64,000 nucleotides of DNA. Origin: Liquidambar formosana. Lineage: Eukaryota; Streptophyta; Magnoliopsida; Saxifragales; Altingiaceae. Positions 12,512-36,300 of the stretch are shown in pieces (position 1 is the first letter of the stretch; each line of letters starts with the position of its first letter). Location of the stretch: NCBI GenBank assembly GCA_039720395.1, contig CM077829.1, forward strand, positions 26,807,842 through 26,871,841, given 5' to 3'. The position numbers and the translations under genes are program-made. The notes beneath the pieces are model-generated. The model worked only from the letters and a program-made list of their open reading frames with translations, ran no database searches and was not told the origin of the DNA.

Positions 12512-12594
12512 CCTCGGGTGACCACCCAGGCCTAGACAGCTAGCCGCCTGGGCCCAGGTGGCTAGCCACCCAGCCCCAGATGGTCACTCGAGCC
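12512..12594. promoter_or_regulatory. 80-bp palindromic module, copy 1 (solo LTR)
   Basis: Begins CCTCGGGTGACC and ends GGTCACTCGAG, so the ends are inverted repeats. The interior is made of alternating GGCTAGCC/GGTGGCTAGCCACC-like words that are also palindromic. It lies 185 bp upstream of the TATA box at 12779. Four related copies are listed separately. Confidence 0.7.
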
Positions 12595-12778
12595 TCTTTC
12601 CTTTTTTGAGTGTTGACGCGGCTCCCTTCCTATTTCCTCAGATTTGCTCGCCTCTAGCTGCCATTTAACCCTATTTTCAGCTCTATTTGACCTACTTGAG
12701 CCCCAAGGGAACCTCTAAAAGCCCTTGGATCAATACCTAGGGTTTTAATTCCAACCATTGAGGGTTTTCCCTCAAACC

Positions 12779-12787
12779 CTATAAATA
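12779..12787 (+). promoter_or_regulatory. TATA box of the solo LTR
   Basis: CTATAAATA, followed about 35 bp downstream by a purine-rich leader; position in the LTR matches 24688 in the 3' LTR of C. Confidence 0.6.
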
Positions 12788-14707
12788 CCCCCTTATACTT
12801 CAGCAATAGGGGAGGCAATTTCTGAAGTGGGAGGCATGTGTGAGACTTGGAGGCTATGACAGCCATCCTTAGGGTAGTTTAACCTAAACTTTAAGTGAGA
12901 GAGTGAGAGAGAGAGCTTAAAGGAAGGCTGGAGTTTGGCTTGAAGGCTTGAAGGAAGGAATTCCCAGCAGTGCATAAGAGAAGGAGGACTCTCTACAGCA
13001 GCAACCATAGGTATACCCTTTCTTCTCCCTTTCACTCTTTTAAAGTTAAGGTTTTGCATAGAATAGCATGATTTGAGGTCAAAGCATATGTTTTTATCAT
13101 GTTTTCCTGTTTCTATTAGCTAGTATGCATGTTTAGGATGATATTCATGGGCTGTTTAGTATGCTAGAATGTTATTCCATGCAATTTACTGCATGTTTGG
13201 GATTCTAGGGCTTCCTTAGTGCTGAAATTGGTTTTCTGCATGAAGTAACTCTTTTACATATTAAAGCTTATGATTTTATCATATTTTGCTGTTTCTATTA
13301 GCTAGTATGCATATCTAGGATGATATTCATCGGCTGTTTAGTATGCTAGCGTGTTATTCCATGTGATTTTATGCACCATTGTGATTCTCGGGTTTTTATC
13401 ATCCTTGTGTTGATTTGGTTGCATATAGCATGATAGCTTAGGGTTTTTCTTTGTTTCTTCTTCATAGTTGCTGAATGTGTGCTGCATATTAGATAACTAT
13501 GATGTTTTTGCATTCATATTAGTTGATTTTAGGGTCTTTTTGCATATCATTGCACATAAGGCTGGATTAGGGTTTAGTTAGCTTATGATTCATGTTATTT
13601 GCATGATTTATGGTTGATTTTAAGCCTTACTTCAATTCTGTCCAAAACTGTTTAATGGCTTTAATGATGAATTGTGAGCATGTGTTAGCCTATATTTAAG
13701 CATGATAATTGCTTGGTTAGAAACTAGGTTTGTTTGTTGGTATTTTTGGTATGTTTTGCATGGAAATTGCAGGTGCTTGACAGGTACAATAGGTGCAATT
13801 ACCCCACCAATGTGGGGTGGTTATTTTGGCTATTGTGAGATGAAATCTTGCAAATAAGATAATTACCCTATGCAATAGGGTGGTTATTTTGACAGGTTGC
13901 TTTTGCTTAAGGTAAGTTGGGTATGAAGGTGCCCTAATTCACCTTTCTCTCCTTTCCTTGAAACTTTCCCTTTCTACCCTCCTAGGGTCATTCCTTAATA
14001 GAGGGGTATGGTAGACTCTATAGTGTCCTTTCATATAAAAATTGCCTTTTAAATCAAAGTTTCTATCTTTATAAAATTCCATATCTTCAAAAGAGCTTTT
14101 GAGAATCATTCATTTTTGGAAACTTACCATGTTTCTTATGAAAGGAAACTTAGGGTTTACTATAGGCCTTTATTAGGTTATAACCCTATTCCCTTTCGAA
14201 CTACGTAGACTTTGATCTATGTATTTCCATACATGGTACGTAGGCGCTCTTCGTGAGGTTCAAGTCCGCCTTAGGATACTAAGTATCCTAGGTTTTCTTT
14301 CTCCTTTTTCTCTTTTATATTTCTCTTTGATTTATTTGCTTATATGGATGAATGAATAGATGATATGCATGCTGTCGTGTGATGATAATTGTTAATTGAT
14401 GTGTGATTAAGACTTTGATTTAGCCCAATTAAATTAAGAGACCGTTTAGGGTGATATGGGTGCCTATAGGCTTTGCCTAGAACCTTCCCATATCATAACT
14501 TAGCCTCCAAATCCACTATCATTGGTTTCCAAAAGATCTTTTGCCTTACCATTTTTAAACATGGAGTCATAGTTTTGTTTTCCTAAAACAAAACTAGTTT
14601 TTTTAGGGTTTTCCTTGTTTCCTTTAAAAAATAAGGTGGCAACTCCTTTTCCTTTTTCAAAACCATTTTCTTTTGCAATCCTTGTGGGCCATTTTCCGGG
14701 GTCCACA

Positions 14708-15180
14708 GATGGTCAAGAAGCCTTTGAGACCATTAAAAGATATCTGAGCAATCCCCCAATCTTGGTTCCCCCACGGCAAGGTGAACCGTTACTATTATAC
14801 TTAATGGTTACTAAAACCGCGACGGGAGCCATGTTAGCTTAATACCTTGAAGGGTCGAAAAAGGAAAATGCCATCTACTACTTGAGCAAGAAAATGACAG
14901 ATTATGAAGTAAAGTACAATGCACTAGAAAAGGCTTGCGTAGCATTGGTGTAGGCCACCCAAAAACTCCGCTATTACATGATGTCTTTTGAAGTCCTGCT
15001 GATAAGTCGATTGGATCCTTTGAAGTATTTGCTAGAAAAACCAGTCCTATCGTATAGGAACGGCTCATTGGTCGCTTTTCCTCAATGAGTTTGACATAAA
15101 GTACTTGGCACAGAAGTCCATCAAAAGAAGCGTCGTTGCAGACCACTTGGCAAGTTGCCCTGTGTCATCATCAACCTAAT
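14708..15180 (+). pseudogene. Gypsy RNase H domain of element C (broken)
   Basis: Continues the RT: QEAFETIKRYLSNPPILVPP, then GEPLLLYLMVTKTATGAMLA, a stop, YLEGSKKENAIYYLSKKMTD, YNALEKACVALV, another stop, then LRYYMMSFEVLLISRLDPL and KYLLEKPVLS. It then goes out of frame, with the recognisable tail (DIKYLAQKSIKR) in another frame. This is the connection/RNase H part that removes element RNA during reverse transcription. At least two stops and one frameshift make it non-functional. Confidence 0.85.
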
Positions 15181-15236
15181 TCAATGACGAGTTCCCCAAC
15201 GAAGACATCCTTGAAATCAGGAAGAAGATTTAAAGA

Positions 15237-15689
15237 GTTTACTTCGACGGAGCTGCAAACAAAAGAGGTTATGGAATAGGAGTGCTACTAGTTTCGCCCG
15301 AAGTAGCCTTCATGCCTTTAGCAGTCAAATTGGGGTTCGAAGCTACCAATAACATTGCAGAATATGAGGCCTGCATCTTAGCATTGGAAGCTGCGTTAGA
15401 GTTAGGAATAAAGGAACTGGAGGTGTTTGGGGATTCAGCATTGATCATCTATCAGATAAAAGGGGAGTGGAAAACTCGCAACGAGAAGCTGTTGCCATAT
15501 CACGCCTATTTGGAAGCATTGACCAAAGAGTTTGTAGAGATCGAGTTCAATTACCTGTCAAGAAACAAGAATCAGTTTGCTGATGCCCTAGCAACTCTAG
15601 TTTCGATTGTGGAGATACCAGAAGGAGGAAGTGTGAAACCACTCGTAATCGAATGCAGAGAGAAACCTATTTATTGTTGTTCCATTTGA
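15237..15689 (+). pseudogene. Second, archaeal-like RNase H of the Tat lineage
   Basis: An open frame of about 150 codons beginning VYFDGAANKRGYGIG after an upstream TAA at 15231. Four acidic residues expected for RNase H catalysis are visible: D in YFDGA, E in NIAEYEACI, D in VFGDSALII and D in QFADALA. A second RNase H between RNase H and integrase is characteristic of Tat-type gypsy elements. This is the best preserved part of pol, but it has no start of its own and depends on a broken polyprotein upstream, so I call it a pseudogene fragment. Confidence 0.85.
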
Positions 15690-15699
15690 GAAGGGGAAG

Positions 15700-16965
15700 T
15701 AATAGATAATCACCCCTGGTTTTATGACATAAGGAGGTTCATCGAAGAAAGGGAATATCCAGAGGAAGCATCTCGTGTGGACAGATGAACACTAAGAAGA
15801 TTGGCAAGCCATTACGTGGTATGCAGAGGGAAACTGTATCGAAGGTCCTACGACGAGATTCACTTGCTATGTGTCACAGAGGAAGAAGCTAGAAAACTCA
15901 TCGAAGAAATTCATTAAGGAATGGGGGCTCCGCATATGAATGGATACATGCTGGCTAAGAAAATCATGAGGCTAGGGTATTACTGGTCTACAATGGAGAG
16001 GGATTGCTATACCCATGTCAAGAAGTGTCATAAGTGTCAACGCTTCGCCAACGGACAACACTTGCCCTCCATGCCCTTAACAAGTATGTCAACTCCTGGG
16101 CCGTTTGCAGTATAAGGAATAGATATCATTGGGCAGATTAAGTTGAAGGCTTCCAATGGACACGAATTACATCTTGGTAGCCATCGATTACTTCACCAAG
16201 TGGGGTAGAAGCAGCTTCCTTTAAGGTTTTGAATGCCAAAAAGGTGGCGCAGTTCATACAGCTCAACATTATCTATAGATATGGGATACCACATGAGGTT
16301 ATTTCGGATAACGGTCAGCATTTTCAGAAGGAAACTAAAGAACTCTTGTAGAAGTATAAGATCATTCATCACTTGTCATCTCCGTATCGCCCACAGACTA
16401 ATGGTGCAGTAGAAGCCGCCAACAAGAATATCAAGAAGATACTATAGAAAACGGCGGACACGTACACTGATTGGCATGAGAAACTACTATTGGCATTATA
16501 GGGGTACAGAACATCAGTCAGATCATCAACAAGGGCTACGCCGTATGCTTTAGTGTATGGGATGGAGGCCGTTCTACCAGAGGAATTAGAAGTTCCTTCG
16601 CTAAAGGTTACTATAGAAAGCCAACTGGTAGAGGTGGATTGGATCAAAGGTTGTTATGATGAGTTGGCGCTATTAGATGAAAGACGATTGGGGGCTCTGT
16701 ACCACATACAGGGATATCAGAGAAGAGTCGCAAAGGCGTTCAACAAACATGTCAAAGACAGGGGCTTAAAGAAAAGGGGATTTGGTATTGAAAGAGATCC
16801 GAGCTCCAATTTTTGATCCACGAGGAAAGTTTGAACCCAGTTGGGGTGGCCCGTACGTCATCAAGGAGATATTGCCAACAGGGGCTATTTGACTTATGGA
16901 CTTGGATGAGATCGAGTTCACTCGTCCTACCAATTTGGATCAATTAAAGAAGTATTATGTATAAG
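15700..16965 (+). pseudogene. Gypsy integrase of element C (broken)
   Basis: The zinc-binding module is visible as two histidines (EIH, a stop, then GAPHMNG) and CHKC in KKCHKCQRFANGQ near 16020-16050. The DDE core is scattered over frames: D in GIDIIGQI near 16120, DNGQHFQKE near 16310, and E in NGAVEAANKNIKK near 16400. The tail continues YGMEAVLPEELEVPSLKV near 16555 and on to about 16965. The enzyme would insert element DNA into the genome. At least six stops or frameshifts are visible. Confidence 0.85.
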
Positions 16966-17220
16966 GCCTGCTAGGTTGAAAACCTGTAAGAGCGGCCTAG
17001 GTAAAAGTTAAGGCATTTGAACTACGAAGACCTGATTCCCCAAAAAGAAAAAAGAAAGAGAAAAAAGAAACAAAAAAAAAAGGAAAAAAGAAGAAGAAAG
17101 AGAAAGAAAAAGAGAGAAAAAGAAAAAAAAAAAGAGAGAAAATGGGGATACGTAGGCAACCCACAAAGTTACTTTGGGTGCGGTCCAAACAATACCATCA
17201 CAACAAACTCTCAAAAGTAA
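16966..17220 (+). other. 3' untranslated part of element C with an A/G-rich tract
   Basis: Begins with a block also found in element E (GCTAGGTTGAAAACCTGTAA here; compare 39870). The word GAACTACGAAGACCTGATTC near 17018 is separated from GGGGATACGTAGGCAACCC near 17142 by about 100 bases of almost pure A and G. It does not code, although the purine tract makes a lysine/arginine-rich open frame by chance. Confidence 0.6.
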
Positions 17221-17404
17221 ATTATTATTGGTAATTCATTTGAAACTAATTGATTGACATAGCAATATATTGGTGTTAAGTAAAAGAACTATCGATATGC
17301 CATAGATATTCTATTTCTTAAGTCTTCAAGTTCTCTTGAGTTTCTTCAGAGTTGTCTTGTTTGTCTTCTTTCTTTCTCTCTCAAGTCTCCTTTTCTTTCG
17401 TAAG

Positions 17405-18627
17405 TCATGGTCAGTGTGTTGCCTCCACTGCTTCAAGAATGTCTTCTCTACAAGGCCCAAGTCTCATGTCCCTAATAAGGTTATAAATTCTTTATCTACG
17501 AGAAGCCTCCCTTTCGCCCAAATCATCCTTCAACCATTTCTTATATTCTGGGCTCATCTTGAAAGGTCCTTCAATGTTGGCGATCCGAGTCAATTTCAGG
17601 TCCATAAGCCAACGAGTCCTCGCCTACTTGACCATAGAAAGATCCGACAGGTTCTACAGAGCAATAAGGTCCTATTAAGGACGGTATGGTTTGCATGGCT
17701 CCCATCTGGCAAAGAATTCTCGAGGTCCAATAGAAGGAAGTCGATCTCAGCCCTATGAGTTTGACAAAAGCACACCCTAAGGTTTGGAAAAAGCACTTGT
17801 TCTTTACATCCCCATAAAAAGACAAACCATTTGATGTTCCACCACGACATCGTTTGGAAATAACCGAACCAATCTCTTAAAGAAAATGGCCCAAGGAGTT
17901 CAATTCGGCACAGACAGAAGTGCTGGGGCTTGTATGGATTGATAGTGGTAGGAGATAGAAAATTCAAGCATTCGAGCAGCCACATTTGCAATAAAAAGGG
18001 GCTACCTCCTAAAGGTGCTTTAGGGTTGCCATGAACCTCATCTAAACCATTCAGGGTTTTAGCTAATACCAAGGGAATAATGTTATGTCGCTTGAGAAGA
18101 GGGGCAATCAATTCACATATTTGAACAGGGGCTTGAGGAGTGCTGGTGGAGATAAGAAAACGGCCAATCAAACAGAAAGCGAGGGCACGTTGAAGTTGAG
18201 AGGTGAAAATTAGAGTACCTTTGCTATCGTAAGCTAAGAAAGAGGTTGCTAACTTCATTAAGTCCACCATATGATCCTTTACAAAGATCGTTACATCCTT
18301 CTGAGGAATGCCAAGAAAGTCTGAGAAAGAAGTAAGGTAATTCGAGCGATGTGTAGGAAGGATGAATGGCCCTGCGGGTGAAACTCCAAACAAAGCATAG
18401 AATTCCTCTATAGTTGGGCATAATTCTTCATAATTGAATCAAAATACATGGATGTGAGGATCCCAGAAATACATAGCAGTAGTGAGAAGAGTCGTTTCAA
18501 GCTTCATATACCTTATAGAGAGCAACGGTTCCAAGCCAAAGCACTTAAACTCAATTTTGTCTTTAGGCAGCCATGACTGCCAAAACCCTTTTAAGAACCC
18601 ATCCAAGGCTTCCATAATTATTGTCAA
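17405..18627 (-). pseudogene. Antisense DUF7745-like gene in element C (disrupted)
   Basis: A minus-strand frame starting at 18627 (or the second ATG at 18615, MEALDGFLKGFWQSWLP) runs to 17596. Its single in-frame TGA at 18439-18441 falls where CGA (Arg) is likely, a typical CpG decay. After that stop it reads FNYEELCPTIEEFYALFGV. Past 17596 the recognisable tail MSPEYKKWLKDDLGERE continues in another frame to about 17405. The pattern (TIEEF.ALLG near the N-terminus, a long helical middle, a K/R/E-rich end) is what I recall of the plant DUF7745 family, often found in retroelements; that assignment is from memory and moderate. Its role is unknown. An 80-bp palindromic module lies 130 bp upstream of the start. 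Confidence 0.6.
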
Positions 18628-18758
18628 TAAAAATAAGTGAGCTAGAAGGCTTCCCTCATGTGTTTTTGTAGGGAAAAAGTCATAAATTCGAGTCCTAAAA
18701 GGAGTGGAATCGTCAAAATAGCAAAAATCCTGAAAAATCGCAAAAAAAATGCGTCAAC

Positions 18759-18838
18759 CTCGGGTAACCATCCGAGGCTGGACGGTCAGCCGTCTAGGCC
18801 CAGATGGCTAACCGTCCGAGGCTAGATGGTCACCCGAG
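18759..18838. promoter_or_regulatory. 80-bp palindromic module, copy 2 (upstream of the antisense DUF7745-like gene)
   Basis: Starts CTCGGGTAACC and ends GGTCACCCGAG, with GGCTGGACGGTCAGCCGTC near its centre. It is exactly as long as the copy in the 3' LTR (24421-24500) and nearly identical to it in the left half. It is 130-140 bp upstream of the antisense start codon. Confidence 0.75.
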
Positions 18839-19684
18839 GCTCCGCCTTGTTTTGCCTTATTTCACTCAGTTTTGCCTATTTTCGCTTTCGGATGGCCTTT
18901 TTAGGCCGTTTTAACTCTTGTAAGCTCACACTAACTCAAATTTTCATAAGAAAGGCATCACAACATCATTATAATAGGTTTTAAGAAGCACCACAAGTAT
19001 CCATACTAAGGGTTAAGAAAGTAGTTCAAAGGTTGCAATTATAGAACACAGCATAAAATGCAAAAAGATAGCCATTGTTTCATTGTTTTTACAATCCCAA
19101 CGAAGAAGTAAGTGAACTCAATGAGTCCCAGAGCTTCTTTTTCAGCTTGGCTTAGCTCCGTCACGACCCCCATGAGGTGCTCTAGGAGGGTGCATTGATG
19201 GTAGCAGTTGCACTGACGAAGTCTGTTGCAAAGAAACTAAGTATGAGAATAGGGTGGGTTGAAAACCTCAATTAAGAACTTTAAATGGGTTGAACACTTA
19301 CCGTGGCATCCAAACGGGCTTCCACCATGGATTTGGCTAAGCTCATCCTCACAAGGTCACACCTCAAGCCCTCGCTAAGATCAATGAATTCTTGGGCATA
19401 TGCCGCAGGCACCTAGAATAATCAATAAGATTAAATTGAAGGTAACATCGAAAAAAGAAATACCTATAAAGAGAACTCACCTGTTCTCAACTTGGGTCGA
19501 TCCTAGGGGATTCATCAAAAGGGGGATGGGTGATGGAAGTCTTGACAAAGTTCGACCCTCAGCACAAATCTATGGACTAATTAAGTCGAGGCAAGGGCAG
19601 TGACCGATTTTCCTCCATTTCATCTTCTTCAGAACCATGAATCACCCCCGTACCTGAGCCCACTATCGAGCTATGCCCTTTTGC
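18839..19684. other. Spacer between the two antisense genes
   Basis: I see no conserved coding frame. It would hold the 3' end of the PMD gene transcript and the upstream region of the DUF7745-like gene. Confidence 0.35.
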
Positions 19685-21776
19685 TCATTGACCTTGCAAA
19701 TGTTCACCTATTAAATAAAGTCTCTATCAAAAGAAAAGGCTAGGAAAGCGTCAAAGACTCACCCCTTGAGGAGGGAGGCCTGTCACCCTGGGTCTCATAA
19801 GATATTGATGGCAGAATATGTCGTACACAATGTTAGGAGAAGTGTACTCCTCCGCATCCCAACCCCTTAAAGCATCCCACAACTCCTCCCCTTCCATTAA
19901 CTTAGCATGCCTCATGTTTAGTGGTGGTGGCATTGGAGTCATAACTGCATTCACATCACCCATGACTTGTCGCAAGACTCGCTCCCCTAAGTACCAGTAC
20001 CTGCCCACAGGGCCTTCCAAAAACACCCTTTTGCCAGTCAACATTAAGCTAGGAATGCACCGCTTGGGTAGCATTGGCACCCATATCTTCCAAGGATCCC
20101 ATTTCATCTGTTCAAAAATCCAAAATGAGAAATTGGAAGTAAAAAGGAAAGAAAAGAATGGGGAGAGAATTTCACCATGTCAACTGTTAAGCTTGCTAGG
20201 TGAGCTCTAGTATAGGCATAATCATGACGGTTCGTCACCCAGAAGGACACATAAGTGGGAGAGTAATTCTTAAGGGTAGGCCATTCTATAGTTTCCTCAG
20301 CAAGAGATGGGCGACATAAGTTGAGGTACTCATAACACCAGACCTGTCAAGAGTTGACAAAAGAGTCAAAAAAGAAAAGAAAATATAAAAAAGAGTGAAA
20401 GGAAATAAAAAGGAAGTACTATTACCTCCCAAACAAAAGGCATCCCTCTAAAGTCCTTGGTAACACCGCGGGACATGTCACACATTGTTCGGTACATGGT
20501 GGCCAGAGCCCCTCCCCAATTGAATTTCCTAATCTTACCAACATCTTCCATGCTTGCAAGGAGACTCAAAGGGGCTAGGTCGCCCGTACCAACAAAGAAT
20601 GTGCAGGAAATCATGTAAAGAAGGAATGCCCTTGTAATGCAATCGGGGCTCGCACCCGCGCTCTCCCTTTGCTTTGCAAATTTGTTAAAAAGCCAGGTGC
20701 AGCGCACCGCTTTCTTGATTACCTCAACTTCCATTCCAAGGTAAGCTAGGAGATAATCCTCATCCGTGGATGCCTCTTCATAGAATTCCAAGCTCTTGCC
20801 TTTAATGCTCAAGCCCATGATCATGGGAAAGTCCTTGGGGGTTAAAGTCATCTCCCCAAAGTCGAAGTGGAATGTGTTGGTGGGGTCCCACCATAATTCA
20901 GACAAGGCTAGCAAGGCTTGCCTATTGCATTGATCGTTCCATAAGGAATCTAGGAATGGACCAAAACCGGCATTTTTGATAAGGCTCTTGGCTATAGGTT
21001 GTAAGTTTTCCATGTTCCACCACCACTCAATAAGTCCTTTTATAGAGGACCTAGTGCACATGTCCTGAAAGTTGGGCTATAGCCGTTGAAAATACCTTAA
21101 GAGTTAGTTGAGAGAACATGGAAATATTAAGATTACACTAGCAATTGGTTTCAAATTGTTTTCTAAAAGATGTCAAAAAGTTGTTTTTATTCATGAAATG
21201 AATTGCTACTGAATGTTTATGAGTTTACTTGTTCATATGCCTTAATTTGGCAAGGATTGAATACTTGTTTATCACTTGGGCATTTTATCGAACATTTGGT
21301 GGGTGACACTTCCTAAGCCTTGAAACAAAAGAATTTTGTATGATCAATCCTTGCTAAATCATAGCATATTACTCACTTGAGTGTTTATTTGTTGATATAC
21401 ATTGATTTGGTAAAGATTGAACACCTTTATTTCACTTGGGCATTTTATCGAACACTTGGTGGGTGGCATTTTTCAAGCTTTCAAATGAAAAGGATTTGTG
21501 TGTTCAATCCTTGCCAAATCAAGGGATATCACTCAAAAATACAAGGGGTATACAAAAGAAGTAAAGGGGAATGCAATTTCATCAATAGAATTGAAAGATT
21601 CAAAAGAAAAGTGTCAAGTTGAGTAAACTTACTTCTTGTTGGGAATGGAGGAATGAGAGATGCTTGTCGGGTTCAAGCAACACCATATCTTTTGGAGCAT
21701 CATAGAATGGTGCCTTGTACTTGCTTTTGACCCCATAGAATGGATACTTGGTGCTTGAGTCCTTGCTAGATGACAT
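19685..21776 (-). CDS. Antisense plant mobile domain (PMD) gene in element C, five predicted exons
   Basis: Predicted exons on the minus strand: 21776-21633 (starts MSSSKDSSTKYPFYGV), 21064-20426, 20343-20176, 20107-19763 and a tentative short exon 19723-19685 ending in TGA. All introns are GT-AG (donors GTAAGT, GTAATA, GTGAAA, GTGAGT). Every exon length is a multiple of three, and the 444-codon product has no internal stop. Exon 2 contains the PMD core (LWWDPTNTFHFDFGEMTLTP, then FPMIMGL). Exon 3 has VWCYEYLNLCRPSL. Exon 4 has WVPMLPKRCIPSLMLTGKRV and GRYWYLGERVLRQVMGD. The family (PF10536) includes MAIN and MAIL1, plant nuclear proteins involved in silencing and genome stability; PMD genes captured by gypsy elements are known. 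The intact frame contrasts with the ruined pol. The function in the element is unknown. Confidence 0.8.
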
Positions 21777-22061
21777 TATTGATGATGGAGTTGGGTTTGT
21801 GAAAAATGGGTTTGATTTGGTTTGATTTCAAAAGAAGATGTGAATTGGGTGTTTTGATTGTTAAATGGGTTTGATTTGTTGTTGTTTGATGTGAAAATGA
21901 TGTTTGGATTGAGTGTTTTTGAAATGGGAATGAGAGAATGAGAGTTAGAGAAGAGGGAATGAGAGTTTAGAGAGAGAAACTCTCTAATTTTCAAGTTAGA
22001 AGAGTGTGAGAATGAGTGTGCAAGAAATGGGTTTTATAAACCTAGATTTTTCCTTGGTGGG
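21777..22061 (-). promoter_or_regulatory. Predicted promoter and 5' untranslated region of the antisense PMD gene
   Basis: On the minus strand, TTTATAAAAC at 22031-22040 is a good TATA box. Downstream is a stretch rich in C, T and A (TCTCTCTCTAAACTCTC, CAACAACAAATC) without ATG codons near the start, as expected for a plant leader of about 230 nt before the ATG at 21776. The transcript start is predicted near 22005. Confidence 0.55.
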
Positions 22062-22140
22062 CTCGGGTAAACGACCCCCTTGGACGGTTAGCCGTCTTGC
22101 CTTGGATGGCTGACCATCTGAGGAAAGATAGTCACCCTAG
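22062..22140. promoter_or_regulatory. 80-bp palindromic module, copy 3 (directly upstream of the PMD gene TATA box)
   Basis: Starts CTCGGGTAAACGACC and ends GTCACCCTAG, with GGACGGTTAGCCGTC and GGATGGCTGACCATC inside. It is more diverged than copies 2 and 4. It ends 22-24 bp from the minus-strand TATA box at 22031-22040, much closer than in the LTRs. Confidence 0.7.
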
Positions 22141-22389
22141 CCCACTTTGCCCGTTTGCCCTGTCTCGCGTGCTCGCGACCTCTAAACTTCTCCAAATTGA
22201 CTTGGTATTCACTTTTTGAGTTATGGGATGAAGATATCCCCCAAGTTTATCAAGTTTTAATGAAATTTTGAATCTTGGGTGATTGTATTTATCCACATAA
22301 TGAGAAATTGTTATGGCTATGATAAATAGCTTTCTCATGAAATGAGCTTGGTGTTGAATAGATTGGCTTTCAAGTCTTGAAATTCAATT

Positions 22390-23395
22390 CTCTATATGAT
22401 GATAGTGATATCATATCATGTGATAACGATAATTTCACATGAAATGACTTGATAATCATGTGATAAAGATAATTTCACATGAAATGACGATTTATGAGTT
22501 ATGTTAGTTACGAAGTAACTTGCTATCTTTATGAAATTAGCATGAAATGTACTTTGTTTTTTGATCAATTGACTTTCAATTCAATGTCATATCATGTGAT
22601 AAAGATAATTTCACATGAAATGACATGAAATAAGCTCGATTTTCAATCAATTAACTCTCAATTCAATGTCATTTCATGTGATAAAGATAATTTCACATGA
22701 AATGATAAGAAATGAACTTGATTTTTAGTTAAATGACTTTCAATTCATTATCATATCATGTGATAAAGATAATTTCACATGAAATGATAAGAAATGAGCT
22801 TGATTTTGAATCAATTGACTTTCAATTGGATCTAAAATCATGTGATAACGATAATTTCACATAAAATGATGATTCATGAGTTATAAAATAACTCACTATC
22901 TTTGCTATTTCCATTGAAAGTGGCATGAAATCATGTAATAACGATAATCTCACATGAAATGATGATTCATGAGTTATGAAATAACTCACTACTTTTGCTA
23001 TTTCCACTGAAAGTGGCATGAAATCATGTGATAAGATAATTTCACATGAAATGATGATTCATGAGTTATGAAATAACTCACTATCTTTGCTATTTCCACT
23101 AAAAGTGGCATAAAATCATGTGATAACGATAATTTCACATGAAATGATGATCCATGAGTTATGAAATAACTCACTATCCTTACTATTTCCACTGAAAGTG
23201 ACATGAAATCGTGTGATAATGATAATTTCACATGAAATGATGAGTCATGAGTTATGAAATAACTCACTATCTTCGTTATTCCCCAATGAAATTGGCATGA
23301 AATGCACTTGGTTTTGAATTGATGGACATTCAATTCAACGATAATTTCACATGAAATGACGGCCTATAAGTTTTACTTATTATGAAATAACTTGT
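22390..23395. repeat. Tandem repeat block of element C (about 93-bp units with two built-in hairpins)
   Basis: Five well-kept units of about 93 bp run from 22829 to 23300. More irregular, shorter units lie at 22390-22828 and a remnant at 23335-23395. Each unit contains CATGTGA...TCACATG (7-base arms around about 11 bases) and GAGTTAT-GAA-ATAACTC (7-base arms around 3 bases). Open frames across it are artefacts of the repeat. Tandem repeats before the 3' LTR are usual in Tat/Ogre elements. It also lies upstream of the antisense PMD promoter. Confidence 0.85.
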
Positions 23396-23702
23396 TTTGA
23401 GAATTTCCAATAAAATTGGTAGGATACCTTGTGATGCACTAGTGCAACTAGCTTTGTATCATGAGAAGACCATGTGGATATCACTAATGCAATTAGTGCA
23501 TGGTAAAGGCATTTGCATGAGCGCACTAATGAATGTTGGCATGCAATCGATTATTTGCTTCGATGAAATTATCGCATGCTTGGATATGACGAAGTCTATC
23601 CTTATGGTTCCATTTGAATTTTTTGGTATTAATGAGATTAATCCATCGAACAAAAATGGGTTGTTCTTTAATCATTGGCTCACAAGTGAAACTTGTTCAC
23701 CA

Positions 23703-23714
23703 ATGAGGGGCTTC
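23703..23714 (+). other. Purine-rich tract before the 3' LTR of C
   Basis: ATGAGGGGCTTC directly before the LTR start TGTCACACC. It is the probable plus-strand primer (polypurine tract), and its presence argues that 23715-26711 is a true 3' LTR rather than a solo LTR. Confidence 0.55.
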
Positions 23715-24420
23715 TGTCACACCCCATTTTTGTTACCTTTACTAGGACATATCATTTCATGTAAGATTTTGAGTTCTTTGAGTCTAGTCTTTTGCATTGA
23801 GTTTCTATGGCATTGAATATCATGTGTATGAATTTTGAAGTGATTTGGAGTTCATCTCGATAGTCAATAAGGACTTTTGCGACTTTAAGGGCATAATCGT
23901 CTTTTAAGCCGTATACTTTCCATTTGACCTTGAAATGAACCCTGAGTCATTCCCTTGAGTTCATATGGTTATATAAAGTCTATATATAGGTTTAATTTCA
24001 TGAATTAATGGTTTAAGATCAATTCGGCTCATAACGGTTCGGGTTGGCCAAAAGACCCTTTCTTGGTTTGCTCAAATTGACTCACAAGACCCACTCCATT
24101 TCCTCTCATTTAACTTCAATTTGGCTTTATTTACATCCTAGGTATGTTTAAAGAGGTTGAATTTCAATTGGGAAAGCATTTGGTTTGACCTTGTGTACAA
24201 ACCTAAGCTTAGCGACGGTGAGGCACCATGGTTAACCACCTTTGTAAAACCTAACCATGTACCCATGGTTAAGGATTTTTGTCCTAAAATGCTTAAAAAT
24301 GTGTTCCCCTTCGAAACACAGTCGTTTTGGCTTTTATTTCGTCAAAATCGGACTTAATTTCACTATTTTAGGACTTCTAAGGCGAGTAGGAGTCAAAACC
24401 GGAGCAGAATAGAAGAGCCC

Positions 24421-24500
24421 CTCGGGTAACCGTTCGGGGCTGGACGGTCAGCCGTCCTAGCCCAGACGGCTGACCGACTAGGCCTAATTGGTCACCCGAG
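24421..24500. promoter_or_regulatory. 80-bp palindromic module, copy 4 (3' LTR of C)
   Basis: Best preserved copy: starts CTCGGGTAACC, ends TGGTCACCCGAG, with GGACGGTCAGCCGTCC and GACGGCTGACCG inside. It lies 188 bp upstream of the LTR TATA box. Confidence 0.75.
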
Positions 24501-24687
24501 AGACTTCGTCTTTAACTGGGTTTCTGACTCTTCTTTCCCTCTTTCGACGGTTTCCTCCGCCTTTGCAACTTGTTTTCTCCTAGGATTGTGTAAGTTTGAG
24601 TTGTTTAAGCACTAAGAGAGTCTCTAATAGCCCTAGGATCATTGTTTAATGAATTAATCTTAGCCATTGGTTTAGGGGGTCAGTTCT

Positions 24688-24698
24688 CTATATAAAGG
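24688..24698 (+). promoter_or_regulatory. TATA box of the 3' LTR of C
   Basis: CTATATAAAGG, followed 50-70 bp downstream by the AG-repeat leader. It sits at the equivalent position to 12779 in the solo LTR. Confidence 0.6.
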
Positions 24699-26711
24699 AT
24701 ATGATGTTCAGCACATAGGGGAAGGTGAATTGCACTTTACACTTAGAGAGAGAGAGAGCTACGAGTTTGGAGAGCTAGAAGGACATCAAGAGGAGGCTCT
24801 TCAACTCTAAGCAAGCATGAGAACAAAGAGTTTGAAGACAAGGAAGGTTCTACAAGAGGTAAGCACTTCTTTTGAATGCTGAATATAGGTTTTCTCTTTC
24901 TCCTTCTCCTTCTCCTTCTATGATAGTTCTAGTGCATAATGCAACTCCATATGTTAGGACAATCAATGCTTTTATGATGTGTTATGAATGATTTTGAGAT
25001 GATTTATGGCTTTATATGCTTGATAATCCCTGGTTTACTAAGGTTTTGAAAGTATTGTCTCTTCTATCCTCTTAAATCATGCATAGTTCACATGTTTAGG
25101 TTGCTGTGATAATTGTCATGAGTTGATGCTCCTATTAGTTAATATATATTATATGAATGATGTTCATGATGATTTGAGCATGTGTTAGAGTCTTTTCATA
25201 GGTTTTTATGCATAGTTGTGAGACTAAGGTTTCGATAATCCTAAAATCACACAAGTTTCATACAACATGTTTAGTTTAATTCTGTGAGTATTTTCTCATC
25301 ATAGTCATTCTATATATGCTGCATATAGTTGAATCATGCTAGGTTTGCATTCATATAGTGGGTTTTATAGGGTTTTTGGAGATATTATCCTTTTCTAAGG
25401 ATAATTATCCTTTTTGTTAAGTAGGGTTTTGCATGAGAGCTTTTTGTGATGTGTTTAAGATGAAATCGCTTCTGTTATTTTCTAATATATATATTTTACG
25501 TAGGATGATGATTGCACCTCCCTACAGTGACTTTTTTACGTGAAATTATCTTAGGATAGTTTTGCTTAAGAAAGCTCGCCGTAGGAAGGCCTATTTTCAT
25601 ATGTTACATAAAATGTCATCTTTTCAGTTAGAATAGGCTTTGCTATAATGTTTATTGATATCATTGAGGTCTCTCATGATTGTTAGTGTGTCTCTGGTGG
25701 GTTTTTTTATGCATGTTAGTCAGGTCATTGAACGTAGGATTGAGTTGGGGTCCTTAGTTATTCGTTATTCTTGTTGTTTGCATGATAAATAGATGATTTT
25801 AGGCCTTGTCATGATTCTATCCAGATTAGTATATTGTTCTTCTTGCATGGTTTTGTGCACTTGTAAGGGTGCAAACAGGTACAATAATTGTCATATTACA
25901 AATAGGGCTGCTATTGCTTGAAATTTCTAATGCTTGGAACTATTGCGCTCAGGTAAGTGGGTTTGAAGGTGCCCCAATTCACCTTTCTTTTCTTCTTCTT
26001 TCTCTTCTCCCTCCTAGGGTTATTTCTTAATATGGACATATGGTCCTAATCAAGGGTTTCCTTCATTGATAAAATTCTAGTTTTCTATCAAAGTTTCCAT
26101 CTTGTGGAAGTTTTCAATTTTGGACTATTCAGTACATTCTCGAAGAAGGAAACCTAGGGTTTTTACCATAGGTTTGTATTAGGTTTTAATCTTATTCTTT
26201 TCGAACTACGTGGACTTTGATCCATGTATTTCGCTGCATGGTACGTAGGCGCTCTTCCTGAGGCTCAAGTCCGTTCTAGGATCCAAGTATCCTAGGTTTC
26301 TCTTCTCTTTTCTTTTTTCTATTTCATTTTCTTTTCTTTGTTTGATTATGCATGGATGAAATTGATGGATGGGATATATATTATGCATGCTGTCTTGTGA
26401 TGATATATGATGATATTTTGAATGAAAAAGATCTTAAATTAGCCCAATCAAATTAAGAGACCAACCCGGGCGATGTGGGTGCCTATGGGCTTTGCTCAGA
26501 ACCTTCCATGTCATAACTTAGCCCCCGAATCCAATTTTCTAGTTTCAAAGACTTTGCTTTTCCTTTAATGGAGTCATGTGGTTTTGAAAATAAAACATTT
26601 TACGGTTTTCCTCTTTTCCTTAAAAAATGAGGTGGCGACTCCTGTTCGTTTGTTGTCTTTTTCATACCTATCTTTTGCCAAACCCTTGTGGGCCGTTTTC
26701 TGGGGTTCACA

Positions 26712-28975: not shown

Positions 28976-29264
28976 TTTTTTTTTTTTTTGCCGCCTCTAT
29001 CCCCCCTCCTCAAGCAGTTTTTTATGCGAGAACGTCTCTGAATAAATAGATTACTCTCTCTTGTGGTTCAAGTTTCGATCTTTATTGCCGCTGTCATCCT
29101 CCTCGCCGTCGTCAATCAAGGCAAGTGGATCTATTGCTCTCTTTTAGGTTATTTCTAGGGTTTTTGTAATTTGTAATTTTATTTTGTTCCTTTTGGATTA
29201 AGGATGATATATTGGATGGATTATTGTTTTTCTTGCTCTCTCTTTCTATATATATATATATATA

Positions 29265-29295
<31 letters not shown>

Positions 29296-29484
29296 CTATA
29301 TATATATATATATATATAGATATATTGGATTATTGGGAATTTTTATTATTTAGAATTACTTCATGAAAATTGTTTTGGGGTTTTTAAAGCTCCATTGTTT
29401 GTTCTAGCTAATTGTTTTCTAGTTAAAGGCCCTAACTTTGCAATGTGATTTTGATGATGCATATTCCCAGTTAATGGCCCTAAC
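28976..29484. other. Poly-T, GC-richer stretch and (TA)n microsatellite
   Basis: A T run at 28970-28990 adjoins the LINE. 28990-29130 is richer in C and G with codon-like triplets (CCTCCTCGCCGTCGTC) and resembles the leader of a host gene, but I find no supporting frame. A TA/TC repeat lies at 29248-29325. Confidence 0.35.
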
Positions 29485-30179
29485 TAGGGGTGTTAATGGT
29501 TCGGTTTGGTTTGGTTTTAGGGGAGATTTCAAACCAAACCATTATACTTCGGTTTTGTTCCTCCCAAACCAGAACCAAACCATACTATAAAAAAACCAAA
29601 CCAAACCAAACCATTATATTTCGATTTGGTTCGGTTCGGTTTCGGTTTTAACCTATCAAGTAACAACAAATAATTGAAAATGAAAAAACTGACATGCCAA
29701 ATTCCAAATAAAAACATTTTTAATAAAAGCATTACAATAGCAACTAAAAAAAACAAACATTGTATCAAAACAGAAACATATTGACATATATCAACATGTC
29801 AATATCACACATAACATTAATATACACAACATTACTAGCTAGTTTAATACATGCCAATTTAAAAAAGAGAAAACAATAAGAAACTTAAAATCAACAAAAA
29901 CAAGCCCATTACCTATTTTACCCTTATTAGAATTGGGAATTTACAAACTTTAAGTTTATATATATATATATATGATATATTTTTCGGTTTTTTCGGTTTT
30001 TCGGTTTGGTTTGGTTTTTTAAAACTGAAAACCAAAACCAAACCAATTGAGTTCGGTTTTCTAAAATTAAAACCATAACCAAACCTAATGACAAAAAAAC
30101 CAAACCAAACCACTCGGTTCGGTTTGGTTCAGTTTGGTTCTCGGTTTTAACCAAAACCATTAACACCCCTAGCCCTAAC
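29477..30179. mobile_element. Short hAT-like element with perfect 8-bp target duplication
   Basis: The element is 29485-30171 (687 bp): TAGGGGTGTTAATGGTT at the left and its inverse AACCATTAACACCCCTA at the right. GCCCTAAC flanks it at 29477-29484 and 30172-30179. The ends are crowded with GGTTTGGTTTGG/CCAAACCAAACC words able to pair over 100 bases. It has no transposase and so is non-autonomous. An 8-bp duplication is the hAT signature. Confidence 0.85.
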
Positions 30180-30505
30180 TGTAGGGGACTATTTATTGTG
30201 AATTTTTGTATTGCTTTTATTTATTTTCTTTGATCTAGATTCTGATTTTGCCAAATGGGGTTTGTTGAATTTTCATATTGTTTGCTTCATACACCTAATT
30301 CATGGGTAGATAAGTTTTTAGTATGTATTTTATTTATTTATTTGGTATTGTCTTTTTTTAATAATATTAGTGTTTGGAATTTTTTCCAAACACTAATTCA
30401 CCTAATTCATGTGCATATAAACTAGAGATTTTTCCTTTGTCGCTCAAAACAGTAACAATAGCCATTTGGTGGGTGATTATTAGTGTTTGGAATTTTTCTT
30501 GCATT
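30180..30505. other. Unassigned AT-rich spacer with a small palindrome
   Basis: Continues the sequence left of the hAT element. AGTGTTTGGAA...TTCCAAACACT forms a hairpin at 30370-30395, and TATTAGTGTTTGGAATTTTT recurs at about 30478. No coding frame is supported. Confidence 0.35.
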
Positions 30506-30509
30506 TGGC

Positions 30510-32532
30510 TTATTCTTTCAACTGTCGCTGAAATGACTTTTGAGGCTTACTCCGTTTCTTTGGTATTTTCTTCTCAACAACCTTTTCTTTCCCCATAGGT
30601 TTCTCTTTGGGATTTTCCCACTCTAGCATATCAATTTCTTGCATGTTTTCCTTATGTAGGGTGGGTAACAATGTAGGCACTTCACATGGATTTGACTGTG
30701 GAACTATCAGAACTCCCTCATCAATCAAGTCTTGGACCACTTTCTTTAGTAAGGTGCAATCTTTGGTATTATGGCCAAATTTTCTATAGTATAGGCAAAA
30801 TGATGGGTTAGGGACAAGCGAAGGCTTGGGTGGAAGGGGAGTAATAAGGCCTTTTTTCTTGCACTGGTGAAATACTTTGGTTAGACTCATAGGCAAAGTG
30901 GTGTAATGACGAATGGGTCGAGGTAGACGAGGTGAGTCTTCTATTGCATTGACATTAGAAGTGGGGGGTTGGTTATGTGATGGCAAAGGATTTTGAGTGA
31001 CATTGGGACAGTTAGGTGGGCCTATGATCTTCTTGTCAATGAGGTCTTGTATTTTATGTTTGAGACAGACATAACAGTCTGTTCTATGGCCTTTGGATTG
31101 ATGGAAATGGCAGTACTCATTTTCGTTGTACCACCTAGGTAATGGATTTGGAAGAGGTGTTGGGTCTAGAGGTTTGAGGATGCCCCTTGCTTTCAATATT
31201 TCATAAAATTTGTCCAGTGGTGCATATAAATCAGAGAATTGACGAGGAATAGAATTATTGCCGATGTTCTATGGCTGTTGTGGAGCAATTGCATTCACTT
31301 CAGCAGGTGCCTTTCCATTGTTCCCTACTCGGCGAAACCTTGAGGAATCTTCAATCTTAATGGTGCCATCGGTTATTGCATCTTCAATTTGTGTCCTAAA
31401 GCTAATCAGAGCTTTGAAAGTGGGGAAGTGATGAGCGAACAAGTGTTTATGATATATGAGCAATAGGTTCTTGACCACTATTCGTATCTATTCTTCTTTA
31501 TTGGGCCTATCGAACATTTTAGAAGCTTTCTTCCTCCACCTAGTGATGTAGGAAGAGGAAGATTCATTTGCCGCCTGTTTAGTAGTCTCCAAGTCTCTCC
31601 TTGTCACGTCAACCTCCGTATTGTACTTGTAGTGATCGGTGAATTCTCTACATACGTCTTCCTATGTTCTAGTCTTTGACTCATCCAAACATAGAAACCA
31701 ATGCAAACAAAAAGTGCTAAGTTATTCATGGAATAATTGAGCGATAAACTCCTCGGAAGCCCCACGAGGTTGCATTGCTCGGACATACATTTTTAAATGG
31801 GTTTTAGGGCAACCCGTTCCATCAAATTTATGTAACTCTGGCATTTTGAATGAAATTGGCAATCTCACTTGAGGGAAGAAAGAAAGAGTGTGGATATCTA
31901 CAAAGTCATCTGCACAGTAAATACCCTTCAACGTCTTCTCCAAAGCCAACATCCTTGCAGCCATCATCTTTTGGTCATCACTCATAGGAGGGTTTTCAGC
32001 GGTGGGGACAAAAGTAGATGATTGGGTGTAAATGGGAATATTTTGTAGTAAAGGTTGAGTATGTGGAGGTGGTGGATTTTGAGGCGATGATTGAGTATGT
32101 GGAGGTGGTGGATTTTGGGCTTAGCCTCCAGCTTGGGTAGATGGATTGGATTGGTTTTGGACAATGGGGACTTGAGTATCGGGCATAGCTTAATCTATAG
32201 GAATATTGTGGATAAGGACAGGGGTTCAGGTTGTTGATCTCTTGCACCATTCTTATTGCAGTTTTAGACTTCACCAACACCTCCTCCAACTTCCCAAGTA
32301 TGTCATTTAATAGCCTCTCAATCCTTCGTGGATCTGCTGGAGTCCCAGAAACAGATGTTCCCACGGGTGTAGCCGGGTTATTCAATGCAAAAGTCTCATA
32401 CATGGCGAGGTCTTGTTCGGTACTTCCTCTGATCAAACGACCTGAAGAGTCACGAGTCCAAGCCAGCACTCTATTACAATCAAATGACCCATACTTAGTT
32501 ACAAAGTGACACAAAGCGCCTTTAGTCTCCAC
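30510..32532 (-). pseudogene. Tat-type gag of element D, broken into several frames
   Basis: Four blocks in order. 32532-31996 begins METKGALCHFVTKYGSFDCN. 31985-31722 holds the capsid start (KMPELHKFDGTGCPKTHLKM). 31720-31269 is in changing frames with several stops. 31196-30510 has two zinc-knuckle-like motifs, one in YCHFHQSKGHRTDC and one in CLYYRKFGHNTKDC, then a lysine-rich tail (KEKVVEKKIPKKRSKP). Gag forms the particle and binds element RNA. Frameshifts and stops separate the blocks, and protease is missing downstream. Confidence 0.8.
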
Positions 32533-33324
32533 AATTGATTTTAAACGAGCGAGTAATGGTCTAATAACATTCCTTTAGTTGGGGCTTCTCATCCTTAAGA
32601 GCCCAATGGGCTTTAGGTAAAAAAAGGTTATATTAAAGGGATGTAGGTCGATTGATTTTAAAGTCATGTTACCCCTTAAAAAAATTAACTACCCACATAA
32701 CATTCATTCATATCTCCAACCGCATTCAAGAGTAAGAAACCGGATCACTGTATCGAGGGTTTTGTTTCATCTTCCCAAAGAATCATGATATGAATTGCAT
32801 TGCCATTCATTCTATTCACATTCATTCCCACAATGCACATTCATGCCACACATACATTCATTCCATACACACATACATTCACTCTGTACCGGCATTCATT
32901 CCACGAGCATGGTAACTTTAAACTAGTCGGGTCCATGTGTCCTAAACAGTCCACTATATGCACTAATAGGATAGGATAGTGTTCCCTACTTGCTTGAATC
33001 AACTATATACCTATTACGTGTGGCATTAGGGATGCCGCGTGAGTTAAGTGGTACGTGTTGATCTATTTAATATACCCAAGGGTAAAACTCAAGGGTATGT
33101 GGCAAGAGGAGTTAATAGCTTTGCAAACATGACACACGAGAACGAAGGGAACAGGGGTCAAGCTAGGCTAATGAGAAAAGGCAAGAATACATCGACCTAT
33201 CATTCAAATGCAATTGTGCACATAATGCAATGAAGTAAGCACACATTCAAGCATATGCAAGTGATTGATTTTAATTTTAGTAATTAAATTAGCCCATATA
33301 AATTACTTGAGTCTAGTCCACTAT

Positions 33325-33342
33325 TCCCCAGTAGAGTCACCA
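33325..33342 (-). other. Primer-binding site of element D
   Basis: Minus-strand TGGTGACTCTACTGGGGA begins three bases after the LTR end. The TGG start and position fit a tRNA primer site, and Tat-type elements commonly carry a closely similar sequence. I do not name the tRNA. Confidence 0.65.
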
Positions 33343-33345
33343 GAC

Positions 33346-36300
33346 TGTGAACCACGGGTTTCGATCGGGGGGAGGGAAACCTGTCTTTTTAAAAGACTTG
33401 TAGAAATTTAAATTAATAAAAATATGGTTTTTAAAAGGTTCACAAAAACAAACAAACGAGGAGTCGTCACCTCATTTTTAGGAAAAGAGGAAAACCATAA
33501 AAACAGTTTTTTAAGAAAACCTTTGAAAACAAACCATATGACTCCGATCAAGGAAAGCAAGGTCTTACAAAACAAGAGAGGATTCAGAGACTAAGTTACG
33601 ATGTGGGAAGGTTTTTGGAAACATCCTATAGGCACCGATATCGCCCCAAAATGGGTCTCTAAATTTATATGGGCTATTTCAATCACTTCCTAACTAGTTA
33701 CCTATGCATATGTAAAGAATTATCCATAAACCATCTGCATACATCCATGAACATCCATAAAGCATATAAACATCCATAAAGCATCATAACATTCATGAAC
33801 AAATAGAAGAGATATGGAAAGCATGTAAGTGAGATAGAAAATAAGAAACAGATCCATCCTCCTCCTCTAACAATTACATGTGATGGATAAATGAATAAAC
33901 ATGAGTCCATCCTACTCTTCTAGCAAATATGTGATGGATAAATGAATAAGAATGGGTCCATCCTACTCCTCTAGAAAATATGTGATGGACAAATGGATAA
34001 AAGAAAAAAGAAAAATCTAGGATACTTAGTATCCTAGGGCGGACTTGAACATCAAATGAGCACCTACATACCTTACATATAAAGATGTAAGGATCAAAGT
34101 CCACGTAGTTCGATTGAGAAGGGGTTACTCCCTTTATAATGAACTATAAACCCTAAGTTTCCAACTTAAGAAAGGTTTTAAAAACTTAGGAGTTTCCAAA
34201 AATAACTTGAGAAAAGGTAGGTATTTGAGAAAAAATAGAATTCTAACTCAAATAGAATTTCAGAATGATTTGAATTCAAAAGAGAATAGAACTCCAAATA
34301 AAACAGAATTTTAAGAGAGTTGGAAACTTAAGACTTCTAATCCAAAGTAAAGACAATAACCTGAGGGGGGGAGAAGAGAACAATTCAAACAAAACTTACC
34401 ATGAACCACTTACCATATGCAAATTATCCTGAAACATCGAGAAAACACCAATTAATCACCCCATGTATTCTATAGGGAAATTATCATGCTCAAACCATTC
34501 ATATTCACGTTCAAATCATCATTAGAAGGACCTAATTCAAATCTGGACAGAATACTAAACATGCATATAATGACCTAACACTCATGCAAATAACAAAAAT
34601 TAAAAGAAGGACAAAACCCTAATATGCTTCTATATGCTCTAAACACCCTAACATGCATAAAACTATCAAAAACATGCTAAATATGCATTATCATAATGAA
34701 AATATCATATGACAATCCAAAACATAAGAAGAAAATCTAATATGATGCCTTAGATAAGTATTTTATGTAAGAATGTGAAATAATCATCCTTACGGCGAGC
34801 TTTCTTAAGTAAAACTATTCGGAGATAATTTTACGGAGAAATCACTCTGCATAAATGGTTTCTTCACATATCCTACGTAAAATATATACCTAAGAATGTA
34901 AAGAAACTCACAGCGCACTTAAACACACTCCTAGAAAGCACCTATGCACAACCTCAACCTCTAAGGACGATAATTATCCTTGAAAAGAATAATCATCTAT
35001 ACACCTATGAAGATGAGGCTTACACAGCAAGTGTCCTATACAAAAGATGCTTAAAATCATGCATATAATTGAACCATGAAGAGAAAACGGCCTAAACACA
35101 TCAACTAATTTTCTGTACAAAACGTACCTCTATCTTTAAGAGAGAAACTATCCTAACAGCAAGTAATTCGCAATCCTATTCCACTAGCATGCTTTTTCAT
35201 CATATTTGAATCATATACACTCTAAAATATAAGTATATATGATTTCTAATTGAATACTAAGCCATAACTATGCAGAGAATGGAGTAGAAGAAGAAGGAAT
35301 CGTAAAAGGATACAAAGGAGACTTACAACAAAGCAAAGGTCTTTGCTACGTTCTTCCTTCTTTTTGGCTTGGTTCCCTCCTAGTTCTCCTTTGAAATTTT
35401 AGTAGGAAGCCTTGTCAAAATAGTATGAGTGTGTGCAAACTCGTTCTCCCTCTCTCTCTAGTGAATATGAAGTGTTCAAAAAGCCCCCTATGCTGATGAA
35501 TGAACCTCTATTTATAACCAACCAACCATATAAACCAATAGTTGAGATTAATTCACCATAAAACCAATCTAGGGCTGTAATTAACTCCCATGAATGTTGG
35601 ACAACTCAAAACCACATCCCAATAGGTTTAGAAAACCTTTGGAAGGCTGAAATTCGGAGTGGTAGAGTCTTATTTCATCAAAAACTCAAAGAAGAACAGA
35701 TCAGGACGGAGGCCTTGGGTGACTGGTTGGGGTGAATCAGTTGGACTAGTTGGTCAACCTAGTTGGACCAGTTGGGGTGAACCGGTCACCCGAGATGGAT
35801 TTCAAGTTTCCTCGGTTTTGAGGATTCCTGACCCGTTTCGGCTTCCTAACTTCAAACGGATACAAATTCTTCATTTTAACTTTGATTTGAGTGATTCAAA
35901 AGCCAAAATTTTAAGGATTCAATGTAGAATATTCTTGGACCAAGAATTCCTGACCACGGAAGTGGCTGGGTTTTCATGAGGCGATTAACCAAAAAAATGT
36001 CAATTAACCATAGGGTGATGTGGTGAACCAATCCAAAACCTATCAATAAATTAAATTGGCACTTCAATTAGGCTCATTTCATCATTCTAAGATCAATAGA
36101 ACACTCTGAAACAAATTTGGAGGTCAATTGGAAAATATACGAAGTAAAAGACAAAATTGCCCTTCAAGTCGCAAAAGTTCTAATTAACTATCCAAACCTA
36201 TCTGGAATTGAACCAAATTTGACAAACATATTCAAAATGATCCTAGAAACTAAATGCAATTGATGGGACTCAACAAAGAGACAAAAATATGCATGCAATG

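Follow-up and report, generated by a model that had tools for sequence, protein, structure and literature searches.

An 80-bp module with family-matched half-sites at long terminal repeat and antisense promoters of Tat-like retrotransposons in Liquidambar formosana

Module copies and elements in the window

The stretch of Liquidambar formosana DNA analysed here (64,000 nucleotides; assembly GCA_039720395.1, contig CM077829.1, positions 26,807,842 to 26,871,841 of the forward strand), referred to as the window, contains five copies of a quasi-palindromic module of about 80 bp, distributed over three diverged families (C, S, and D) of long terminal repeat (LTR) retrotransposons. Three copies lie in LTRs upstream of TATA boxes and two lie beside minus-strand genes of element C that code for plant mobile domain (PMD) or PMD/DUF7745-type proteins. 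The half-sites of the module differ between families, but within each family they agree between the LTR and the antisense PMD promoter. The five copies, for which no strand is assigned, are as follows:

12513 to 12592: copy 1, S family, half-site mostly GGYGG/CCRCC, in the U3 of a solo LTR, with TATAWA 187 bp downstream
18759 to 18838: copy 2, C family, GACGG/GATGG, about 143 bp upstream of the ATG of the antisense PMD/DUF7745-type gene
22062 to 22140: copy 3, C family, GACGG/GATGG, 23 bp upstream of the TATA box of the antisense PMD gene
24421 to 24500: copy 4, C family, in the U3 of the C 3' LTR, with TATAWA 188/190 bp downstream
35714 to 35794: copy 5, D family, decayed ACCGGT half-sites, in the D LTR, with TATAWA 197 bp downstream

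A first-pass annotation of this DNA had reported five such copies, 185 to 195 bp upstream of the TATA box in the LTRs and about 24 bp from that of the antisense PMD gene; the positions hold, with a slightly tighter cut for copy 1. Copy 2 is near the start of the DUF7745-like gene as described, at about 143 bp rather than 130 bp; its link to a promoter comes from this position, as TATAWA is absent within 400 bp on either side. The whole-copy dyad symmetry of copies 1, 2, 4, and 5 was reached by none of 500 dinucleotide shuffles, and that of copy 3, which has lost one base, is weaker (12 of 500). A blind scan of the window for GC-rich 80-bp dyads (at least 24 of 40 pairs) returned 10 places, comprising copies 1, 2, 4, and 5 and six others, with copy 3 under the threshold; five block-shuffled windows gave none at the same scan. 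Other strong 80-bp dyads at 62930, 58988, and 49527 (30, 27, and 26 of 40 pairs) are unlike the module; the latter two are alike, with the look of miniature inverted-repeat transposable elements (MITEs), and a similar sequence lies beside one D LTR locus (L086).

Homology between the internal and LTR copies ends at the module edges, such that BLAST aligns 18758-18838 with 24420-24500 only, and the identity of 30-bp flanks between copies is 0.13 to 0.47. A MITE or other inserted palindromic transposon was considered as the identity of the module and rejected, because no target duplication is seen at its edges and its LTR distance to the TATA box is fixed in two families. The surrounding features are as follows:

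11078 to 15686, plus strand: pol pieces of element C, with RVT_1 in 11078-11383, RT_RNaseH_2 at about 14711-14839, and RVT_3/RNase_H at 15234-15686
11810 to 14707, plus strand: S-family solo LTR (TG..CA), inserted in the pol of element C and similar to 23715-26711
17599 to 18615, minus strand: antisense PMD/DUF7745-type gene, broken here (frame 18615-18442, then 18438-17599)
20369 to 21776, minus strand: antisense PMD gene (PMD PF10536, E 1.2e-21), with the exon model drawn by eye
22033 to 22038, minus strand: TATAAA box of the antisense PMD gene, GGTTTATAAAACC
22400 to 23340, plus strand: tandem repeats between the antisense genes and the 3' LTR
23715 to 26711, plus strand: 3' LTR of element C, with the polypurine tract AATGAGGGGCTTC directly before it
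33346 to 36424, minus strand: 5' LTR of element D, followed by the primer-binding-site-like TCTGGTGACTCTACTGGGGA, with ends set by eye

The plus-strand pol of element C codes for a reverse transcriptase and two RNase H-type domains, and is split between the reverse transcriptase and RNase H by the solo S LTR, which is bracketed by a GATGG target duplication (11805-11809 and 14708-14712). The RVT_3 match is strong (E 2.2e-21), that to RVT_1 is under the curated Pfam cut-off (E 4.6e-6), and that to RT_RNaseH_2 covers half of the domain (E 3.4e-6, 27.5 bits against a cut-off of 29.8); integrase-like stretches, which in the gypsy order would follow RNase H, were placed by eye at 15918-16816, with no Pfam match for 16502-16813. 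Copia elements generally match RVT_2 rather than RVT_1, and element C, with RVT_1 followed by RT_RNaseH_2 and RVT_3, is therefore not of the Ty1/copia type. It has two RNase H-type domains behind the reverse transcriptase, a trait named for the Tat lineage (PMC9289625; statements about cited papers refer here to excerpts of them). Two antisense genes, the tandem repeats, and the 3' LTR follow in that order; the repeat units are 82 to 93 bp and are present in related C loci too. In correction of the first-pass annotation, copy 1 is in a solo S LTR nested in C and not in an LTR of element C, and the three LTRs belong to three families. A AATGAGGTGGCGACTCC-like sequence, seen by eye near the 3' end of all three LTRs (about 26630, 14632, and 33472), resembles the primer-binding-site region behind the D LTR. 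A young LTR pair (1746-3110 and 9789-11154, 98.3% identical and about 8 kb apart) is probably also nested in element C, since its second LTR ends near the start of the reverse transcriptase.

The antisense PMD gene has a first exon at 21776-21633, an in-phase intron at 21632-21065 (GTAAGT..CAG), and a second exon from 21064. Its protein, used as a query of the genome, returned 4288 candidates, and the best 150, which were scored, are all at least 85% identical, many without an internal stop. The second gene matches the PMD profile under the cut-off (E 1.6e-4), and of six database relatives five carry PF24924 (DUF7745), four of these with PF10536 too. A PDB sequence search with the PMD protein or its alignment as query gave no match up to E 1 and E 10, and a structure model of the DUF7745-type protein was discarded (predicted local distance difference test score 36.8). 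One PMD protein (P0012) is labelled as from the bacterium Modestobacter lapidis, but its 674-base contig is probably plant contamination.

Module architecture and placement across the genome

In searches of the 718-Mb genome, the best 40 of 1318 candidate matches to copy 1, 40 of 701 to copy 3, and 40 of 226 to copy 5 were scored. The C family was sampled at 20 loci of 7.5 kb, picked by their match to copy 3, with a dyad threshold of at least 25 of 40 pairs. Of the 38 dyads in these loci, the copy-3 site accounts for 15, the LTR site for 14, including one within a nested S LTR, and the copy-2 site for 5, including a shortened copy; 4 lie elsewhere, and three loci have none. By eye, the four elsewhere resemble LTR-type modules, three of C type in reverse and one of S type. 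In families C and S the spacing seen in the window recurs, with 186 to 190 bp between module end and TATAWA in 13 of the 14 C LTRs and all 8 S LTRs, among the latter that of the window. At the antisense PMD promoter, 7 of the 20 loci have TTTATAAAA at 21 to 24 bp, 11 have TTTTTAAA or TTTTAAAAA in the same place, and 2 have other flanks. The module pattern was not found in viral contigs, which contained one distant RNase H relative.

In the C and S modules, 8-bp linkers join four units of 14 bp to a total of 80 bp. The result is a lattice of half-sites with a 22-bp unit pitch, about two helical turns, on one face of the helix. Autocorrelation at 22 and 44 bp exceeds that of shuffles in copies 1, 2, and 4; no signal is seen in copy 3, which lost a base, or in copy 5, which is of another family. 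Core borders were placed by eye from the window copies. On this division each of the inner units is a palindrome by itself (4 to 7 of 7 pairs in copies 1, 2, and 4); an outer unit is not (1 to 4 of 7 pairs), and the two outer units instead pair with one another across the module. Module length is tightly kept: a length of exactly 80 bp is found in 33 of 35 genomic copies of C and S type, the other two being 79 bp, and of the 14 of 20 D LTR copies cut by pattern, nine are 80 bp and five are 79 bp. The 35 come from 41 gathered copies (6 at the copy-2 site, 20 at the copy-3 site, 14 from LTRs, and 1 from an S LTR), leaving out copy-2-site copies L047 and L056, which have insertions, and copy-3-site copies L040, L042, L046, and L048; the copy-3 matches of L040, L042, and L046 are 79, 80, and 79 bp. 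Two further modules, a 36-bp copy at the copy-2 site of L058 that lost two 22-bp units and the D module of L105 that is shorter by one, imply that the array can shrink by units.

Between the PMD-promoter and LTR modules of family C, cores differ by 9% and linkers by 57 to 71%, with linker length kept (this and the dyad-pair comparisons also exclude the two 79-bp copies, and the latter use the nine 80-bp copies as the D LTR set). Conservation within C insertions is 0.916 for the module, 0.898 for the right flank, and 0.782 for the left flank, which is interrupted in some loci by other insertions.

Half-sites matched within families

Half-sites were counted per module in both orientations, at 30 copy-3 loci, 10 S LTR copies, and, with the window added in each case, 20 D LTR loci and 4 copy-2-site loci; the antisense modules of S and D are represented by two loci per family. 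GACGG together with its T variant GATGG occurs 5.4 times at the C copy-2 site (n=5), 4.1 times in the C LTR (n=15), and 5.1 times at the C PMD promoter (n=30). GGYGG occurs 4.6 times in the S LTR (n=10, with a further 1.1 GACGG/GATGG) and 4.5 times at the S PMD promoter (n=2), and ACCGGT 3.5 times in the D LTR (n=21) and 4.0 times at the D PMD promoter (n=2). ACCGGT is absent outside D, and outside S the GGYGG count does not exceed 0.2. The LTR and the antisense PMD promoter thus agree in all three families, and the first-pass claim of a single signal shared by the sense and antisense promoters of an element holds and extends to many C insertions and to families S and D. One apparent exception to the family matching, an S LTR on a C interior (L050), was rejected, as the S LTR there sits within a C LTR.

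The S PMD-promoter modules (L060 and L061) sit at the place matching that of C and are under the dyad threshold; further S interiors, L062 and L063, have no PMD-promoter region. The presence of the D half-site at a D antisense module was predicted beforehand from S and was then found, with four ACCGGT each in L104 and L105, two D 3' LTRs identified among 20 screened by their polypurine tract and of which part of the interior was examined. In the L104 module 27 of 40 dyad pairs match, and in that of L105 fewer than 22. In a comparison of eight modules, with half-site columns following the D lattice, the columns differ by 0.20 between sites of one family, by 0.51 between families at one site, and by 0.51 when site and family both differ; the corresponding linker differences are 0.46, 0.52, and 0.59.

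Matched half-sites could reflect recent non-selective copying of the LTR module into internal sites, through gene conversion or a template switch during reverse transcription. The coincidence of the homology limit with the module edges is as expected for this, as are the partly shared linkers of the D LTR and D antisense modules (difference 0.29) and the resemblance of C copy-2-site linkers to those of the C LTR (0.25). However, copying would carry the linkers along, and the C antisense PMD modules share half-sites with the C LTR without its linkers (difference 0.57 to 0.71). Moreover, the antisense site looks ancestral, as adjoining sequence in both D loci matches the PMD-promoter side of C at about 61%, extending in L104 to a PMD exon at 67%, and CCCTAGCCCGCTTTG at the far end of the module is common to the C loci and L105, though not L104. 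We consider copying improbable.

The two arms of the module have changed in concert. When family majority sequences of the LTR modules are compared (5000 randomisations), dyad partners differ together at 14 pairs between S and D (9 compensated; 7.5 expected, 0 of 5000), 14 between C and D (7 compensated; 8.4 expected, 1 of 5000), and 5 between C and S (2 compensated; 1.9 expected, 65 of 5000), the opposite of decay of the end symmetry. An alternative role is an 80-nt hairpin in genomic or antisense RNA, acting as a signal or a small-RNA source, as was proposed for the palindromes in LTRs of maize Sireviruses. Predicted folds of the modules range from -35 to -54 kcal/mol, and an excess of small RNAs is reported at Sirevirus palindrome clusters (PMC10760457, citing Bousios 2016). 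Among the non-Watson-Crick dyad pairs of 51 distinct modules in element sense, which are related and not independent copies, A-C (246) outnumbers G-U (156; other, 157), and there is therefore no general sign that folding of the sense RNA is kept. The C antisense PMD modules taken separately have more G-U (81) than A-C (67), but only 0.33 of linker pairs match in their majority sequence. An RNA hairpin is accordingly very doubtful, and of the two roles raised in the first-pass annotation, a binding platform or a hairpin, the former is favoured because the linkers drift, whereas the half-sites, their spacing, and the module length either stay the same or differ jointly from one family to the next. 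The module is thus probably a protein-binding platform.

The binder could be a host transcription factor, for example of the AP2/ERF class, with families having changed their half-site along with the host factor or tuned its affinity. The right half-sites of S read AGCCGCC, which we take to be the GCC box, and the C half-sites GCCGTC and ACCGTC are one base off; the D half-site ACCGGT, on the other hand, presumably falls outside AP2/ERF-class sites. Sirevirus palindromic boxes upstream of the TATA box have likewise been likened to host stress sites (PMC2829016). A single host is common to all families, however, and a host factor would not explain why their half-sites differ while the two sites within each family agree, which makes this unlikely. 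Given a platform, we lean slightly towards a binder encoded by the element itself.

Related systems and a possible self-addressed circuit

The nearest precedent for the placement of the module is in Sireviruses, whose RM boxes, with a CGG-CCG core, lie upstream of the LTR TATA box, with extra boxes before env in some (Bousios et al. 2010, PMC2829016). The likeness includes palindromic GC-rich boxes at the LTR, boxes 5' of an additional internal gene, and a family-specific CGG..CCG core, which C and S have upstream of their LTR TATA boxes (GACGG..CCGTC and GGCGG..CCGCC) and from which the ACCGGT of D differs. Sireviruses, however, are Ty1/copia elements; their boxes are numerous and separate instead of forming a single lattice fixed at 80 bp, and their additional gene is a sense env, not an antisense PMD gene. 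The excerpts of PMC2829016 do not describe half-sites that agree between LTR and internal positions across families.

Antisense open reading frames between pol and the 3' LTR are known from Retand/Tat elements, about half of which have tandem repeats (Vicient 2025, PMC11963269). In maize Grande, gene23 has its own antisense promoter and codes for a nuclear protein, and a function in regulation has been suggested (Vicient and Casacuberta 2020, PMC7264820). Element C has its minus-strand PMD and PMD/DUF7745 genes (17599-21776) at the same place, as well as tandem repeats, but 97% of Retand clusters carry TRP28, and in these excerpts PMD is not named and no module shared by LTR and antisense promoters is described. 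The function of antisense genes in large plant retrotransposons has been described as unknown (PMC7264820, PMC11963269), and PMD within gypsy elements was already known (PMC9289625). TRP28 (PF04195) is absent from 12 antisense pieces scanned in the decayed element C copy, which is therefore not filed as Retand.

VANDALs are DNA transposons and not LTR retrotransposons. Their VANC proteins contain DUF1985, and short motifs specific to each family form multiplied, jointly evolving arrays in non-coding DNA (Hosaka et al. 2017, PMC5735166). Families C, S, and D similarly have family-specific short motifs in multiplied arrays within their own non-coding DNA, and the PMD protein has a predicted VANC21-like fold; the excerpts of PMC5735166, where the term plant mobile domain does not appear, do not present the VANC motifs as a palindromic lattice of 80 bp, and binding and demethylation are predictions here. 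The Arabidopsis PMD proteins MAIN and MAIL1, which act in gene expression and transposon silencing and are linked to the promoter motif DOWN (PMC9899485, PMC7156037), are products of host genes, and that motif, CATGCAGTTT, is unlike the half-sites of C, S, and D.

These parallels suggest how the module might act. The 80-bp half-site lattice would serve upstream of both the LTR promoter and the antisense-gene promoter, bound by a sequence-specific factor that co-diverges with it. The PMD (or PMD/DUF7745) protein produced from the antisense promoter would act in the manner of VANC of VANDAL transposons, binding its own promoter and the LTRs of its own family, and once bound could counter silencing or simply activate, or perhaps repress, transcription. 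Whether the module of these Tat-like Ty3/gypsy retrotransposons is a DNA-binding platform, with this antisense protein as its most likely factor, is in our judgement evenly balanced. More tentatively, the antisense PMD proteins may be VANC-like family-private regulators, each with its own half-site (GACGG, GGCGG, or ACCGGT), in a self-addressed circuit against silencing, with PMD, DUF1985, and VANC forming one superfamily.

The first-pass observation is thus confirmed and its interpretation partly supported; what goes beyond it is the pitch of 22 bp, the placing of copy 1 in a solo LTR, the differences in half-site between families, and the connection to VANC. As far as the literature was searched, with subscription journals mostly outside its reach, no module of this kind was found, and a module common to LTR and antisense promoters with family-matched half-sites appears to be new, as does the PMD-VANC link. 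A family-specific array matched between LTR and antisense promoter suggests a regulator that acts in trans. If true, the PMD-VANC link would mean that sequence-specific anti-silencing is found not only in VANDAL transposons but also in abundant LTR retrotransposons, and would bear on how the host PMD proteins MAIN and MAIL1 came into transposon silencing.

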